Program-made: the position numbers and the translations under genes
In this document: positions 7,170-35,722 of the stretch, one piece after another
Layout of the letters: each line of letters starts with the position of its first letter
Position numbering within the stretch: the stretch's first letter is position 1
Notes under the pieces: generated by a model
Databases searched by the model: none
The model's input: only the letters and a program-made list of their open reading frames with translations
What the model was told of the DNA's origin: nothing
Source of the DNA: Thermodesulfobacteriota bacterium
Lineage (GTDB): Bacteria; Desulfobacterota; GWC2-55-46
Length of the DNA: 64,000 bases
Reading direction: 5' to 3'
Assembly (NCBI GenBank): GCA_030583865.1
Contig: CP129479.1
Coordinates: forward strand, 62,001 to 126,000

Positions 7170-7524
7170 GCTCATCCTGGGCAAGTACAATTACTGGATA
7201 TGCATTGCCCTCATGATGGTGGGTTTCTACGCCATGATAGCGAAGGAGAACCTCATCAAGAAGGTCATAGGGATGAACATATTCCAGACAGCCGTTTTCC
7301 TCTTCTACGTCTCGGGCGCGAAGGTCAACGGCGGCACCGCCCCGATATTGACGGAAGGAGCGAAGCTCTACGACAACCCGCTCCCCCACACCCTGATGCT
7401 CACCGGGATAGTCGTGGGCGTAAGCACCACGGCAGTGGCGCTGGCTCTCATAATAAGGATATACAAGGCGTTCGGCACCATAGAGGAAGACGAGATACTG
7501 AAGATGCGGGAAAAGGACGGATAG
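7162..7524 (+). CDS. mrpC: Mrp-type cation/proton antiporter subunit C (NuoK-like)
   Basis: A 120-residue homologue of NuoK/MrpC with three helices, the conserved 'KENLIKKVIGMNIFQTAVFLF' region and the 'PHTLMLTGIVVGVSTTAVALAL' helix. In NuoK and MrpC, glutamates inside these helices are part of the proton path. The standard length and position directly upstream of mrpD make the call secure. A 73-base gap follows before the first mrpD. Confidence 0.93.
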   Translation: MIELILGKYNYWICIALMMVGFYAMIAKENLIKKVIGMNIFQTAVFLFYVSGAKVNGGTAPILTEGAKLYDNPLPHTLMLTGIVVGVSTTAVALALIIRIYKAFGTIEEDEILKMREKDG

Positions 7525-7597: not shown

Positions 7598-9112
7598 ATG
7601 CTTGCAGACAACTATCCTATCCTCGTAATAGTAATCCCGCTCATAGCGGCCGTAATCGCCTTCCTGGCCGGGCTCCTGAAAAAAGAGCTCGCCTGGTATG
7701 TGACCGCCCTCGCGTGCCTGTCGTCCTTTCTCATGGCCATGTCCATGCTCCTTTCCGTCCTCGGCGGCGAAACCATAAGCTACCGTCTCGGCGGGTGGGA
7801 GCCGCCCTGGGGCATAGAGTACGTGGTCGACTACCTGAGCGCCCTTGTGCTCGCGATAGTCACCTTCATCGCGCTCGCCGTGACCCTGTACGCGAAGCGG
7901 AGCGTCGAGCATGAGATAGTCCCGGGCAAGCATGCGCCGTTCTACGCCCTGTACCTTCTCATGGTAGCGGGCCTCCTCGGCATGACCATAACCGGGGACG
8001 TCTTCAACCTGTTCGTATTCATCGAGATCGCGTCGATATCAGGGTACGCGCTCGTGGCGATGGGCCGCAGCCGCGACGCACTCATATCGAGCTTCAATTA
8101 CCTCATCCTCGGCACCGTGGCCGCCACCTTTATTCTCATAGGAATAGGCTACATCTATATGGTCACCGGCACGCTCAACATGGCGGACCTGCGGATTAGG
8201 CTCCCGGAGCTTTACGACACCAGGGCAGTGAGGACCGCTTTCGCCTTCCTCACGGTGGGCCTGAGCCTGAAGCTCGCGCTCTTCCCGCTCCACATATGGC
8301 TCCCGGGCGCCTACACGCACGCGCCCTCGGCCGTATCGTCCCTCCTTGCGGCTACAGCCACCAAGGTAGGGGCTTACGTGCTACTGAGGTTCATGTTCAC
8401 GGTCTTTACCGTGGATTTCGACCTGGAGATAGTGCCGGTAACCAGGATATTCATAGCGCTTTCGTCCGCGGCCATAATACTGGGCTCTGTGCTGGCGATC
8501 TCCCAGACGAACCTCAAGAGGATGCTCGCGTATTCGAGCGTGGGACAGATAGGCTATATAGTGCTCGGGGCCGCCCTCGTGAACGAGCTCGGGCTCACCG
8601 GGAGCATCATCCACATCTTCAACCACGCGCTGATGAAGGGCGCCCTTTTCATGGTGGCGGGCGCGGTAGTCCTCCGGACCGGTTCCGAGAAGATTTCCGA
8701 CCTTAGGGGCATTGGGAGAAAGATGCCCTTCACCATGGCCGCGTTCACGGTAGGGGCCCTTTCCATGATAGGGGTGCCCCTGACAGTGGGGTTCGTGAGC
8801 AAGTGGTACCTGGCGCTCGGCGCCCTCGAGGCCGGGATGTGGTTCCTGGTGCCCGTGATACTCGTAAGCTCGCTCCTCACGGCGGTCTATTTCTGGAGGA
8901 TAGTGGAGGCCATATACTTCCGCCCTTACGAGGCGGCCGCCGCCAGGCCGGGGCACGCGTTTGACGGCGCCGGACGGCCCGTAAGCGAGGCGCCTTTCAC
9001 GATGGTCGTGCCGATGGCGGTCCTGGCCGCGCTCTGCATCGTATTCGGGGTCGCCGCCCACCTGCCGGTCTCGGTCGCAGGCAAGGCCGCGAGCCTTCTA
9101 CTGGGGAGCTAA
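7598..9112 (+). CDS. mrpD: Mrp-type cation/proton antiporter subunit D, copy 1
   Basis: About 504 residues with the proton_antipo_M core: roughly 14 helices, the 'FVFIEIASISGYALVA' segment with the key glutamate, 'KLALFPLHIWLPGAYTHAPS' with the broken-helix lysine and histidine, and 'ISQTNLKRMLAYSSVGQIGYI'. It is a proton-pumping channel subunit of the NuoL/M/N type. The open frame also has TTG at 7595, but ATG 7598 is preferred. It lies three bases before a second paralogue and is the closest of the three channel proteins to canonical MrpD. Confidence 0.92.
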   Translation: MLADNYPILVIVIPLIAAVIAFLAGLLKKELAWYVTALACLSSFLMAMSMLLSVLGGETISYRLGGWEPPWGIEYVVDYLSALVLAIVTFIALAVTLYAKRSVEHEIVPGKHAPFYALYLLMVAGLLGMTITGDVFNLFVFIEIASISGYALVAMGRSRDALISSFNYLILGTVAATFILIGIGYIYMVTGTLNMADLRIRLPELYDTRAVRTAFAFLTVGLSLKLALFPLHIWLPGAYTHAPSAVSSLLAATATKVGAYVLLRFMFTVFTVDFDLEIVPVTRIFIALSSAAIILGSVLAISQTNLKRMLAYSSVGQIGYIVLGAALVNELGLTGSIIHIFNHALMKGALFMVAGAVVLRTGSEKISDLRGIGRKMPFTMAAFTVGALSMIGVPLTVGFVSKWYLALGALEAGMWFLVPVILVSSLLTAVYFWRIVEAIYFRPYEAAAARPGHAFDGAGRPVSEAPFTMVVPMAVLAALCIVFGVAAHLPVSVAGKAASLLLGS

Positions 9113-33378: not shown

Positions 33379-34485
33379 CTATTTTGAATTCCAGCCCGCT
33401 ATCAGCCTTTCCCCTATGGCCCTGACCACCGGAACGCTCACCGCGTTCCCGAGGCATTTATACCTCTGCGTGTCCGAAACCCCTTCCGTCCAGCCGTCCG
33501 GGAATCCCTGGAGCCGCTCACATTCCAGCGGGGTCAGTCTCCTTATCCCTGTGACGGTCTCAACGGCCTGCCCGTTCCCGCTATCCAGGCAATAGGTGTT
33601 ACCGTCCTCCCTGCTTAAAGGCCCGCTCCCGCCCGAGGACGTCTTGTTCCTCAAGGAGGGCCTGTCCGGGCTCCTGGGCTGAAGGGAGTGAACGATGATC
33701 CCGTGCCTGTCATGGCAGGTCAGCGTGAACATGGGCTCCTCCGGCTCCTTGAAGCGCCTGCCGCCCCAGACTTTCTCATTAGCCGCGCTCTTTACCGGGA
33801 TGACGTAGCCACATAGGGGTCCGTCCGACCCTGCTTGGCATACCTGGCCGTCAGGGTGCCCGCCACCTGGTCCTCGCCTTTGGGCTTGCATTTGCCCCCG
33901 AAGCCGCCGTTGTAGCTCAATAATCTCCGGGTCGCCTTCTCCGAAAGGGAATACTTTGGGGCGGGATTTTCCTCTAAGATGTCCGATAAAGTAGACGCGT
34001 TCTCTATTTTGGGGTAGAAACCACTGTGTATTAAGCAGCTGCCATTCGCATTCATAAACCCCAAGGTCGGCAATTGCTCGCAGGACGGCCGTAAAGTCTC
34101 GCCAGTCCGATGATGATAGGAGCCCTTTGACGTTTTCAAAGATAAAGACCGTGGGGCTGGCAGCTTTAATGATTTGCACAGCCTCAAAAAAGAGCCCACT
34201 CCGTGCCGCATGAAGTCCTCTTCGTTTTCCTGCCATTGATAGATCCTGGCATGGAAACCCGAACGTAAAGAGGTCGAGTCGACCCGGCAATTTTCCAGCA
34301 GGGATAATTGTTCTGACATCGCCCATATCCTCCGCACTCGGAAAGTGCTTTTTGTAGATCTGTTTAGCGTACTTGTCTATCTCGGAAAAACCGACCCACC
34401 CGAACCGAAACCCGGCTTCCTCGAGTCCTCTATGGAAGCCTCCTATTCCGGAGAACGCGTCAAGGTAATTAAGCGGCCTGGCCAT
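33379..34485 (-). CDS. Phage DNA (cytosine-5)-methyltransferase
   Basis: From ATG 34485 this is a 368-residue C5 methyltransferase. Motif I is DAFSGIGGFHRGL, motif IV 'FGFPCQDLSMAG' with the catalytic Pro-Cys, motif VI 'FIFENVKGLL', motif VIII 'PQNRERVYFIGHL', and motifs IX-X lie in 'RRLTPLECERLQGFPDGW' and 'YKCLGNAVSVPVVRAIGE'. It would methylate phage DNA at an unknown sequence to evade restriction. In the variable region (about 33,790-34,000) another frame carries methyltransferase-like sequence (TLSDILEENP, then 'AGTLTARYAKQGRTDPYV'), so the region may contain two compensating frameshifts. It is the last gene of the phage, three bases after the adenine methylase. Confidence 0.85.
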   Translation of the reverse strand: MARPLNYLDAFSGIGGFHRGLEEAGFRFGWVGFSEIDKYAKQIYKKHFPSAEDMGDVRTIIPAGKLPGRLDLFTFGFPCQDLSMAGKRRGLHAARSGLFFEAVQIIKAASPTVFIFENVKGLLSSSDWRDFTAVLRAIADLGVYECEWQLLNTQWFLPQNRERVYFIGHLRGKSRPKVFPFGEGDPEIIELQRRLRGQMQAQRRGPGGGHPDGQVCQAGSDGPLCGYVIPVKSAANEKVWGGRRFKEPEEPMFTLTCHDRHGIIVHSLQPRSPDRPSLRNKTSSGGSGPLSREDGNTYCLDSGNGQAVETVTGIRRLTPLECERLQGFPDGWTEGVSDTQRYKCLGNAVSVPVVRAIGERLIAGWNSK

Positions 34486-34487
34486 AA

Positions 34488-35246
34488 TCAGAAGTTCCTC
34501 ACCAGGAGCTCGCCTCTTGCCGCCGCCTTGCCGCATTTGCTCCCCAGGCTGTAGTCGGTTTTGAGGGCTGTCTGTTTAAGCCCCTTGAACGCCTTCCTCA
34601 TCTCCGGGATGTCGTTTACGCTTATAAGCATCTTTCCCTTTACGGACCTGGCCTTCTCGGCCAGGAGGTCGTACTGCTCGAGGCCGAAGTCCACCCCATA
34701 CCCTTCCGTGCCCCAATAGGGCGGGTCGCAATAGATGAAGGTGTGCTCCCGGTCATATTTCTCGATGCATTCCTGCCAGCTAAGGCGCTCCACAAAGACC
34801 CTGGAGAGCCTCAGATGGGCTTCGCTCAGCTCCTCCTCGATCCGGAGGAGATTAAGCCTGGCCGGGGATGTGGTCGCGGTCCCGAAAGACTGTCCCCGGA
34901 CCTTCCCGCCGAAAGAAAGCCTCTGGAGGTAATAGAACCGGGCGGCCCGCTGGATGTCGGTCAAGGTCTCGGGCGGGGTGTCCTGAAGCCAGTCGTATAT
35001 TTTCCGGCTGGTAAGCGCCCATTTGAACTGCCGAAGGAACTCCTCGAGATGGTGCTGGACCACCCTGTAAAGGGTCACCAGGTCCAGGTTGACATCGTTA
35101 AGGACCTCCACCTTCGAGGGCTCCTTAAGGAAAAAAAGGGCTGCGCCCCCGGCAAAGGGTTCGCAATAACAGGTGTGTGTTGGAAATAAAGGCAGGATTT
35201 GCTTGGCTAACCGGCGCTTTCCGCCGATCCACGGGATTATGCTCAT
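34488..35246 (-). CDS. Phage D12-class DNA adenine-N6 methyltransferase
   Basis: A 252-residue alpha-class (D12) N6-adenine methyltransferase, the class of Dam and DpnM. Motif X is 'WIGGKRRLAKQILPLFP', motif I 'YCEPFAGGAALFF', and the catalytic motif IV 'FIYCDPPYWGTEGYG' (DPPY). 'LNDVNLDLVTLYRVVQHH' matches the conserved helix after motif I. The target sequence cannot be read, and GATC is one option. It is encoded with the C5 enzyme at the right end of the phage, where Mu carries its own modification gene mom. An aggagg ribosome site precedes ATG 35246. Confidence 0.9.
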   Translation of the reverse strand: MSIIPWIGGKRRLAKQILPLFPTHTCYCEPFAGGAALFFLKEPSKVEVLNDVNLDLVTLYRVVQHHLEEFLRQFKWALTSRKIYDWLQDTPPETLTDIQRAARFYYLQRLSFGGKVRGQSFGTATTSPARLNLLRIEEELSEAHLRLSRVFVERLSWQECIEKYDREHTFIYCDPPYWGTEGYGVDFGLEQYDLLAEKARSVKGKMLISVNDIPEMRKAFKGLKQTALKTDYSLGSKCGKAAARGELLVRNF

Positions 35247-35328
35247 TACAGGAGGCCCCTCCTTATCAAATAGGATTTGATTTCCATGAGGGTGCCCTGC
35301 TACATTAAATCCGCCCTTGCGCGAGGGT

Positions 35329-35403
35329 GCGGATAGTAGCGGGCAACCGTCCTGTGTTATTGCACAGGGTTGGGGAGGGGCAAACTCCCCGACTGCTATC
35401 CGC
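35329..35403 (+). ncRNA. Candidate structured RNA (three-way junction)
   Basis: A 75-base segment between the last tail-operon gene and the methylases folds into a compact junction. The outer stem is gcggatag (35329-35336) with ctatccgc (35396-35403), extended by three more pairs. Hairpin 1 is cctgtg/cacagg (35351-35368), and hairpin 2 is ggggag/ctcccc (35372-35390). In the outer stem and hairpin 1, the extra pairs work as G-U only on the plus strand and become C-A mismatches on the minus strand, favouring a plus-strand RNA. It does not match a tRNA or a family I know. Confidence 0.4.
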
Positions 35404-35407
35404 TCTG

Positions 35408-35722
35408 CTATTTCAGCTTGAAAGCCTTCTCTTCTGTCGTCACGTCCGTATAAGTCCCGTCACCCCCTTTGCACTTGGCCTTGTATTCCCCGGTAAGCCA
35501 GTTTTCCGCCGTCTGGCAGATGTAATAATACTTCCCGACCTGGCCATCTTTCTTCGTCATGGTCGTTTCAGCCACCTTTTCCACATTCTGCGGGTCCAGG
35601 ATCGCGATAGTCGGCAGGGTAGGAGGGTCGAAATACTCGATGGCTCCAAACGGGGTATTTCTTTTGAACTCGACCTGGATCAGGATCGCCGACCCCCTGT
35701 CCTTGGTTACTATGGCACTCAT
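35408..35722 (-). CDS. Phage hypothetical protein, probable tail-tip component
   Basis: A 104-residue predicted beta-rich protein (SAILIQVEFKRNTPFGAIEYF, KVAETTMTKKDGQVGKYYY, 'WLTGEYKAKCKGGDGTYTD'), reminiscent of the small beta-sandwich proteins that follow phage tail-fibre genes. A clear aggagg ribosome site stands before ATG 35722. It overlaps the upstream 82-residue frame by four bases (ATGA coupling), so it is the last gene of the tail operon. No family is recognised. Confidence 0.6.
   Translation of the reverse strand: MSAIVTKDRGSAILIQVEFKRNTPFGAIEYFDPPTLPTIAILDPQNVEKVAETTMTKKDGQVGKYYYICQTAENWLTGEYKAKCKGGDGTYTDVTTEEKAFKLK

Follow-up and report, generated by a model that had tools for sequence, protein, structure and literature searches.

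A conserved candidate small RNA gene opposite phage dam genes carries a copy of the ribosome-binding site of the gene that it faces and may belong to an antisense-controlled translational switch

What is the strongly paired element that lies upstream of a DNA methylase operon in a prophage of a Thermodesulfobacteriota bacterium, on which strand does it work, and what could it do for the methylase? We analyzed these questions in a window of 64,000 nt (assembly GCA_030583865.1, contig CP129479.1, positions 62,001 to 126,000; the coordinates below count from the first base of the window). The operon runs on the minus strand. A gene of 104 aa (35408..35722, an open reading frame for whose protein family-profile searches gave no family or function) lies upstream of the RNA region. 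It is followed by dam (34488..35246, minus strand), which encodes a D12-class N6-adenine methyltransferase (PF02086, E 6e-31; phrog_56) and is the proposed regulated gene, and by a C5-cytosine methyltransferase gene (33379..34536, minus strand; PF00145, E 3e-67) overlapping the end of dam. The gene com is absent between the element and dam in the window and is present in part of the RNA family. The original prediction described a gap of 75 bases filled by the element; the spacer is larger, with about 160 bases separating the start codon of dam from the stop codon at which the next gene ends (35408), and also contains an upstream hairpin and a promoter-like sequence.

The plus strand of positions 35329..35403 folds at −47.5 kcal/mol compared to a mean of −24.6 kcal/mol for shuffled sequences (z −7.6, 0 of 200 shuffles as good), and the minus strand of the same region reaches −34.4 kcal/mol (z −4.6). 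The predicted structure is a four-way junction with three hairpins and zero unpaired junction bases, and this structured core is supported by the fold, by a covariance-model match and by covariation. P1 comprises 10 bp (35329-35338 paired with 35394-35403; 98.2% of cells paired in 11 homologues) and closes the hairpins P2 (GCGG/CCGT, 35339-35350, found in the fold and in the 11-homologue alignment), P3 (CCTGTGT/GCACAGG, 35351-35368, with double-sided changes at 5 of 6 pairs) and P4 (GTTGGGGAG/CTCCCCGAC, 35369-35393, read from the fold), all on the plus strand; P4 bears the copy of the dam ribosome-binding site (RBS) described below. A three-way junction with two hairpins had been proposed, which was right about the stable fold and missed P2; the fourth helix, the hairpin P0, the promoter and the copied RBS were all absent from that proposal. 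The covariance model scores the element with 80.9 bits on the plus strand compared to 32.5 bits on the minus strand, in agreement with the earlier remark that the extra G-U pairs belong to the plus strand. We consider it nearly certain that the element is a conserved plus-strand RNA, and judged by its sequence it looks like a real small RNA gene.

Relatives of the element were reached only by whole-genome blastn, DNA patterns, dam synteny and covariance models, and blastn of the element itself against named phages gave no match. Whole-genome blastn revealed the same element in relatives of the host, and a DNA-pattern search added two further viral contigs; together with the window we call this type A. 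A covariance model, R1, built from 7 sequences, matched in 9 of 147 relative genomes (E 0.01) and, of 297 genomes sampled from the phylum, in 3 (E 1e-4), the window's own genome being included in both counts; two of the nine matches (G019 and G076) are weak and were not used, and neither were the weak matches L100 and L101. When 11 type A members were aligned by fitting them to R1, 95.4% of the cells were paired and 14 of 30 pairs showed double-sided changes compared to 3.7 in shuffles (0 of 500 as high), while a MAFFT alignment of the first 7 members gave 3 of 30 such pairs, a value reached by 23 of 500 shuffles. P3 alone occurs as CCTGTG/CACAGG, CCTGCG/CGCAGG and CATGTG/CACATG. Counting identical rows once, G-U stands against A-C at 54:6 in type A.

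Two type A copies are located away from dam and com. One of them (L165; G000:C1 1328000-1346000, RNA at 8493-8570, plus strand) belongs to another prophage in the window's own genome; blastn gives a hint of it (E 0.12) and the model scores it with 80.0 bits, the copy being part of the training set. Its neighbours, each recognised by a weak family match, are a minor-tail-like gene on one side and an HTH-like gene on the other. The next gene starts about 270 bases away, and a strong GCGGCATAG/CTATGCCGC hairpin precedes the RNA in place of the usual P0 and promoter. The other (L166, genome G001, RNA at 7173-7248, plus strand) is flanked by a gene whose product has a DNA methylase domain of the N6/N4 kind (PF01555) and by a gene for a 252-aa protein of no known family; by inspection, its P4 contains GGGGAGG, the Shine-Dalgarno sequence of the 252-aa gene.

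The family extends far beyond the relatives of the host. We found 94 dam-bearing viral contigs and kept 80 of them for scanning. Weak R1 matches in these viral loci cluster at one site, on the opposite strand directly upstream of dam, and many of the 80 loci have strong multibranched folds on the strand opposite dam. From 14 sequences, 13 of which belong to the 80 viral loci, we built a second model, R2, with a three-way body P1-P3-P4 and the linker CUUG; in this training set double-sided changes occur at 22 of 33 pairs (0 of 500 shuffles). R2 matches 54 of the 80 viral loci on the strand opposite dam with E 0.031 or better, and R1 adds L010 and L078, which gives 56 of 80 in total; L083 has a match at the right position with E 0.3 only. 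In titled bacterial genomes, 29 of 58 dam loci have the RNA (R2 26, R1 3); several of them repeat a prophage already represented by a viral contig or by an earlier locus. It is also present in 11 of 12 named phages, namely VP882, B3, phiHAP-1 (whose sequence is in the R2 training set), TJ1, Aval, KS9, KP12, MuM16-1, Mae-JY22, Bise and S1, with no real match in StopSmel (best 9.7 bits), and in the stretch examined the named-phage records have no feature annotated for it. In these many unrelated phages the RNA keeps the same position, directly ahead of a D12-class dam or of com-dam and on the other strand. For 41 distinct type B members 94.1% of the cells are paired and double-sided changes are found at 30 of 33 pairs (0 of 500 shuffles), with G-U against A-C at 264:22 (identical rows counted once). 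Because G-U far exceeds A-C in the alignments, and A-C would be G-U on the other strand, the RNA strand is the one opposite to dam. The original prediction of an RNA antisense to the late transcript and linked to the methylases is well supported by the covariation over homologues, which it had named as the check and which favours an RNA, by the strand-specific G-U pairs, by the conserved −10 elements described below and by the conserved position. Among its three options, a small RNA, a processing site and a leader, a separate small RNA with its complement within the methylase leader is favoured.

Several further features were seen during this survey. At seven loci (viral L079, L080, L084, L087 and L088, genome L149 and L153) a distant P1-P2-P3-P4 junction fold lies upstream of dam, for which neither R1 nor R2 scores well; several of these are in Desulfobacterota, and they possibly represent a third subtype. 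The tip of P4 in type B (e.g. L060, L014 and L024) is conserved as (A/G)TGTTnnnGCA(C/T) or GTGCTCnAACAC and contains a start-codon-like ATG or GTG. In Pseudomonas phage Bise (L168, 52-1083) a gene annotated as reverse-transcriptase family directly precedes the RNA and com-dam. The contig of Klebsiella phage KP12 (L167, OM835952.1) is filed under Vequintavirinae and carries a dam of the temperate-phage type together with the RNA; it may be a misassigned prophage.

For the flanks of the RNA we grouped 68 pairs of RNA and gene (all 69 except L075) into 37 clusters and kept one representative of each. In the window an extended −10 element, TGCTACATT (35298..35306, plus strand), is preceded by a −35-like TTGATT (35277..35282, plus strand), 18 bases before the −10 hexamer. 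All 9 type A loci in the alignment agree in the TGnTAnnnT of the former and in the TTG of the latter, and differ in the bases between them. Of the 37 clusters, 32 have a TAnnnT at a distance of 16-36 bases ahead of P1, compared to 3 in an upstream control and 15 on the other strand, and in 22 of the 37 a TGn stands ahead of it. This signal before the RNA is sigma-70-like in its sequence; a strict promoter and terminator scan of the window found none above threshold, TTGATT lying below it. The RNA in the window would probably start near 35311-35314. On the other strand, the complement of the −35 region (35265-35283) forms a small hairpin, ATCAAAT...ATTTGAT, in the dam mRNA of several type A loci, just before the dam Shine-Dalgarno sequence.

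Between the −10 element and P1 lies P0, which in the window is the hairpin CCCTT-GCGC-GAGGG (35314..35327, plus strand, read from the sequence and the fold). In 30 of 37 clusters the four loop bases are self-complementary, where chance would give about 1 in 16; examples are TCGA, TGCA and CGCG, and the window has GCGC. A fixed DNA-binding protein at P0 is unlikely because the P0 sequence varies, and the simplest reading is that the loop can kiss another copy of itself. We make no claim that P0 and P1 are mutually exclusive, as it seemed by eye, since swapped P1 strands pair nearly as well (mean 6.8 for own compared to 6.0 for swapped strands, of 9 bases; at least 5 bases pair in 34 of 37 own combinations and in 78% of the swaps). 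Downstream of P1 the 14 bases on the RNA strand are 46% T compared to 13% on the other side, and a run of at least four T follows in 10 of 37 clusters compared to 0 of 37 on the other side. This tract is T-rich as for an intrinsic terminator, which it resembles; the T-run of the window is poor.

A feature that links the RNA to its neighbour is a copied RBS. Opposite the RNA is the start of dam or, where com precedes dam, that of com. In the window, GGAGGGGC in P4 (35374..35381, plus strand) has the same sense as positions −16..−9 of the dam mRNA, and the dam Shine-Dalgarno region copied there (35255..35262, minus strand) is its perfect inverted repeat; by inspection, TCCTGT in the 5' strand of P3 also matches dam −7..−2. 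In type A the copy of the Shine-Dalgarno region occupies the 5' strand and the loop of P4 and comprises 15 identical bases in L098, 12 in L099, 11 in L078 and 8 in the window. In type B it is the 5' strand of P3 that repeats the bases preceding the start codon (e.g. GGCTCAC, GACTTGCAG or GGTTCACAG). Comparing each RNA with its own start region in the 37 clusters (L075 was excluded for a wrongly called start, and L054 and L055 had theirs moved 27 bases downstream by hand; the P0, promoter and T-run counts depend on the start only through the clustering), the mean best similarity was 7.23 compared to 5.45 for permuted pairs (sd 0.18, z 9.8, 0 of 20 000), where z and permutation counts are not strict probabilities since the clusters share ancestry. 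A held-out set gave 6.17 compared to 5.12 (z 3.7, 5 of 20 000) for 12 non-redundant pairs; these were located later by the models, and of the 23 loci entered one had no gene (L139) and 10 were redundant. In an earlier held-out test the domains of distant loci had been called crudely; it shares some loci with the former, which we prefer as the cleaner one, and gave z 3.1. Little or no copy is found in L028, L048 and L076. Watson-Crick complementarity of the whole RNA to the RBS was not significant (z 1.1).

How could such an arrangement act? The reading that we rate highest, above a direct antisense repressor and above a decoy, starts from the leader of the operon. A phage small RNA gene of about 95-110 nt would lie in the leader of dam or com-dam, the DNA-modification operon, and be transcribed from the other strand; its RNA would consist of P0 and a multibranched body closed by P1, followed in some phages by a U-run, with the RBS copy of the faced gene in P4 (type A) or P3 (type B). 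Since the complement of the copy lies in the sense leader, it would be an anti-RBS in the read-through mRNA: a late mRNA reading into dam would carry the complement of the RNA, fold it onto the dam RBS and shut it. The small RNA, a perfect antisense of the leader, might then compete for the leader via its hairpins and pick between this closed state and another one. Leader and RNA together would form an antisense-RNA-controlled translational switch that times the phage DNA methylase. Folding predicts the sequestration within the sense leader: the dam or com start region pairs with its own leader with a mean probability of 0.31 compared to 0.08 for swapped leaders (p 5e-7), higher with the own leader in 30 of 37 clusters and without excess in seven. 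For the window the predicted values are 0.64 and 0.01, and in the minimum-energy fold of its sense leader GCCCCTCC lies on GGAGGGGC. Next to its own leader the start region is only slightly less accessible (0.40 compared to 0.44, p 0.03), and several clusters show no drop. The RNA would be made, bind the leader and thereby either activate or repress the methylases. On this comparative and computational evidence we give this switch on dam or com-dam an even chance of being the correct explanation.

The same signals have to be weighed for other mechanisms. In one of them the dam or com RBS would be bound in trans by a 3' strand of the RNA, that of P3 in type B and that of P4 in type A, which would block ribosomes, the same-sense copy being a by-product. 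Contiguous pairing of the RBS with these 3' strands, G-U included, is indeed above permutations (z 3.7, 1 of 20 000; 5' strands z 0.2), and by inspection most variants of the type B RBS can be matched through wobble by CUGUGGGUU, the 3' strand in type B. However, stable stems hold these 3' strands, the net RNA-RBS energy is not clearly better than for swapped pairs (−1.7 compared to −0.9 kcal/mol, p 0.07), and in L098, L099 and L078 the copy extends into the hairpin loop, for which a directly blocking RNA has no need. Taken together, a direct antisense repressor appears unlikely. A copy that includes loop positions would also suit a decoy, by which the RNA mimics the RBS and titrates an RNA-binding protein (Dam, Com or a host factor) controlling dam or com translation: same-sense identity is the strongest statistical signal, and in Mu the protein Com is known to bind RNA and to activate the translation of mom (PMC6483171). 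Against this, the copy varies (CUUGCAG, GGUUCACAG, GGCUCAC) among phages with related Dam, which a fixed protein specificity would resist, and com is absent beside the RNA in many phages; we regard a decoy as improbable. Where RBS and copy differ, the pattern of wobbles does not discriminate between sequestration by the sense leader and the other readings, the decoy included.

A role in trans on other targets (a host mRNA, a host sRNA or a protein), with the RNA merely located beside dam, would agree with the conserved loops and linker (the CUUG linker and the apical loop of P4), which need not concern dam, and with the two copies beside other genes (L165 and L166). It is nevertheless hard to reconcile with an RBS copy that changes from phage to phage along with the gene beside it, be it dam or com, and we consider it rather improbable as well. 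Finally, a DNA element (a cruciform, operator or recombination site) would account for the inverted repeats and for the perfect palindrome of the P0 loop in 30 of 37 clusters but is very improbable given the one-stranded G-U excess of both types (on which a purely DNA terminator or operator is rejected), the conserved −10 element and P0 sequences that differ widely yet remain palindromic.

We compared the element with known RNAs. Rfam 15 gave 0 matches in the window at the gathering score, allowing E up to 10 yielded one chance match outside the element, and in two partly shared sets of 20 loci the scan found only two tRNAs, located elsewhere. A tRNA or tmRNA was rejected: ARAGORN reports 0 genes, and the cloverleaf-like outline has a P1 of 10 bp and a P4 of 9 bp. 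In systems such as FinP/traJ and CopA/CopT, a small stem-loop RNA opposite an mRNA leader decides access to the RBS. The dam-facing RNA resembles these, as far as its sequence tells, in being a small stem-loop RNA opposite an mRNA leader, and differs in that its gene lies without overlap of the RBS, carries a separate RBS copy about a hundred bases away and has the self-complementary loop of P0. Rfam also contains a model for the c4 antisense RNA, and c4 was not among the matches of the window or the scanned loci. According to PMC12197685, c4 of phages P1 and P7 is a short structured phage RNA that acts around the RBS of a phage gene via short complementary segments, and the dam-facing RNA may be alike in this. 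Unlike c4, the window RNA lies on the opposite strand, has another multibranched fold, faces a DNA methylase and bears a same-sense RBS copy; the 3' strands mentioned above show complementarity to the RBS (z 3.7), yet the same-sense copy is the stronger signal.

The Com-mom system of Mu (PMC6483171) controls a late DNA-modification gene at the level of translation with leader RNA structure near the start. The likeness lies in the late DNA-modification gene and in the position of the RNA just upstream of com-dam in B3 and others, whereas Com is a protein activator and here a conserved opposite-strand RNA is found, usually without com. VpdS, listed in PMC12197685 as a trans-acting small RNA of about 50 nt, belongs to VP882, a phage that also carries a member of the dam-facing family. 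Our literature search retrieved no description of an RNA opposite phage dam, and the VP882 copy may have been described earlier. It is well supported that the dam-facing RNA is a new RNA family, and as a kind of system it would, by analogy, be a variant of antisense control that is most like the leader antisense RNAs.

The full picture would be a previously undescribed and very widespread class of phage regulatory RNA whose RBS copy co-evolves with the RBS of the operon, whose sense leader and antisense RNA form a two-RNA translational switch and whose P0 loop lets the RNA dimerise or kiss its complement; we hold this to be about evenly balanced between right and wrong. In any case, a large and strongly covarying RNA family missing from Rfam 15 is added, with an unusual co-evolving RBS copy. 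The phages that bear it have hosts among many proteobacteria and Microcystis, and VP882 and B3 are laboratory phages. Phages need modification enzymes late and not too early, and a conserved RNA at one site would give a common answer to the timing of modification in Dam-bearing phages. If true, the two-RNA switch would be, in these phages, the RNA counterpart of Mu's Com control of mom.
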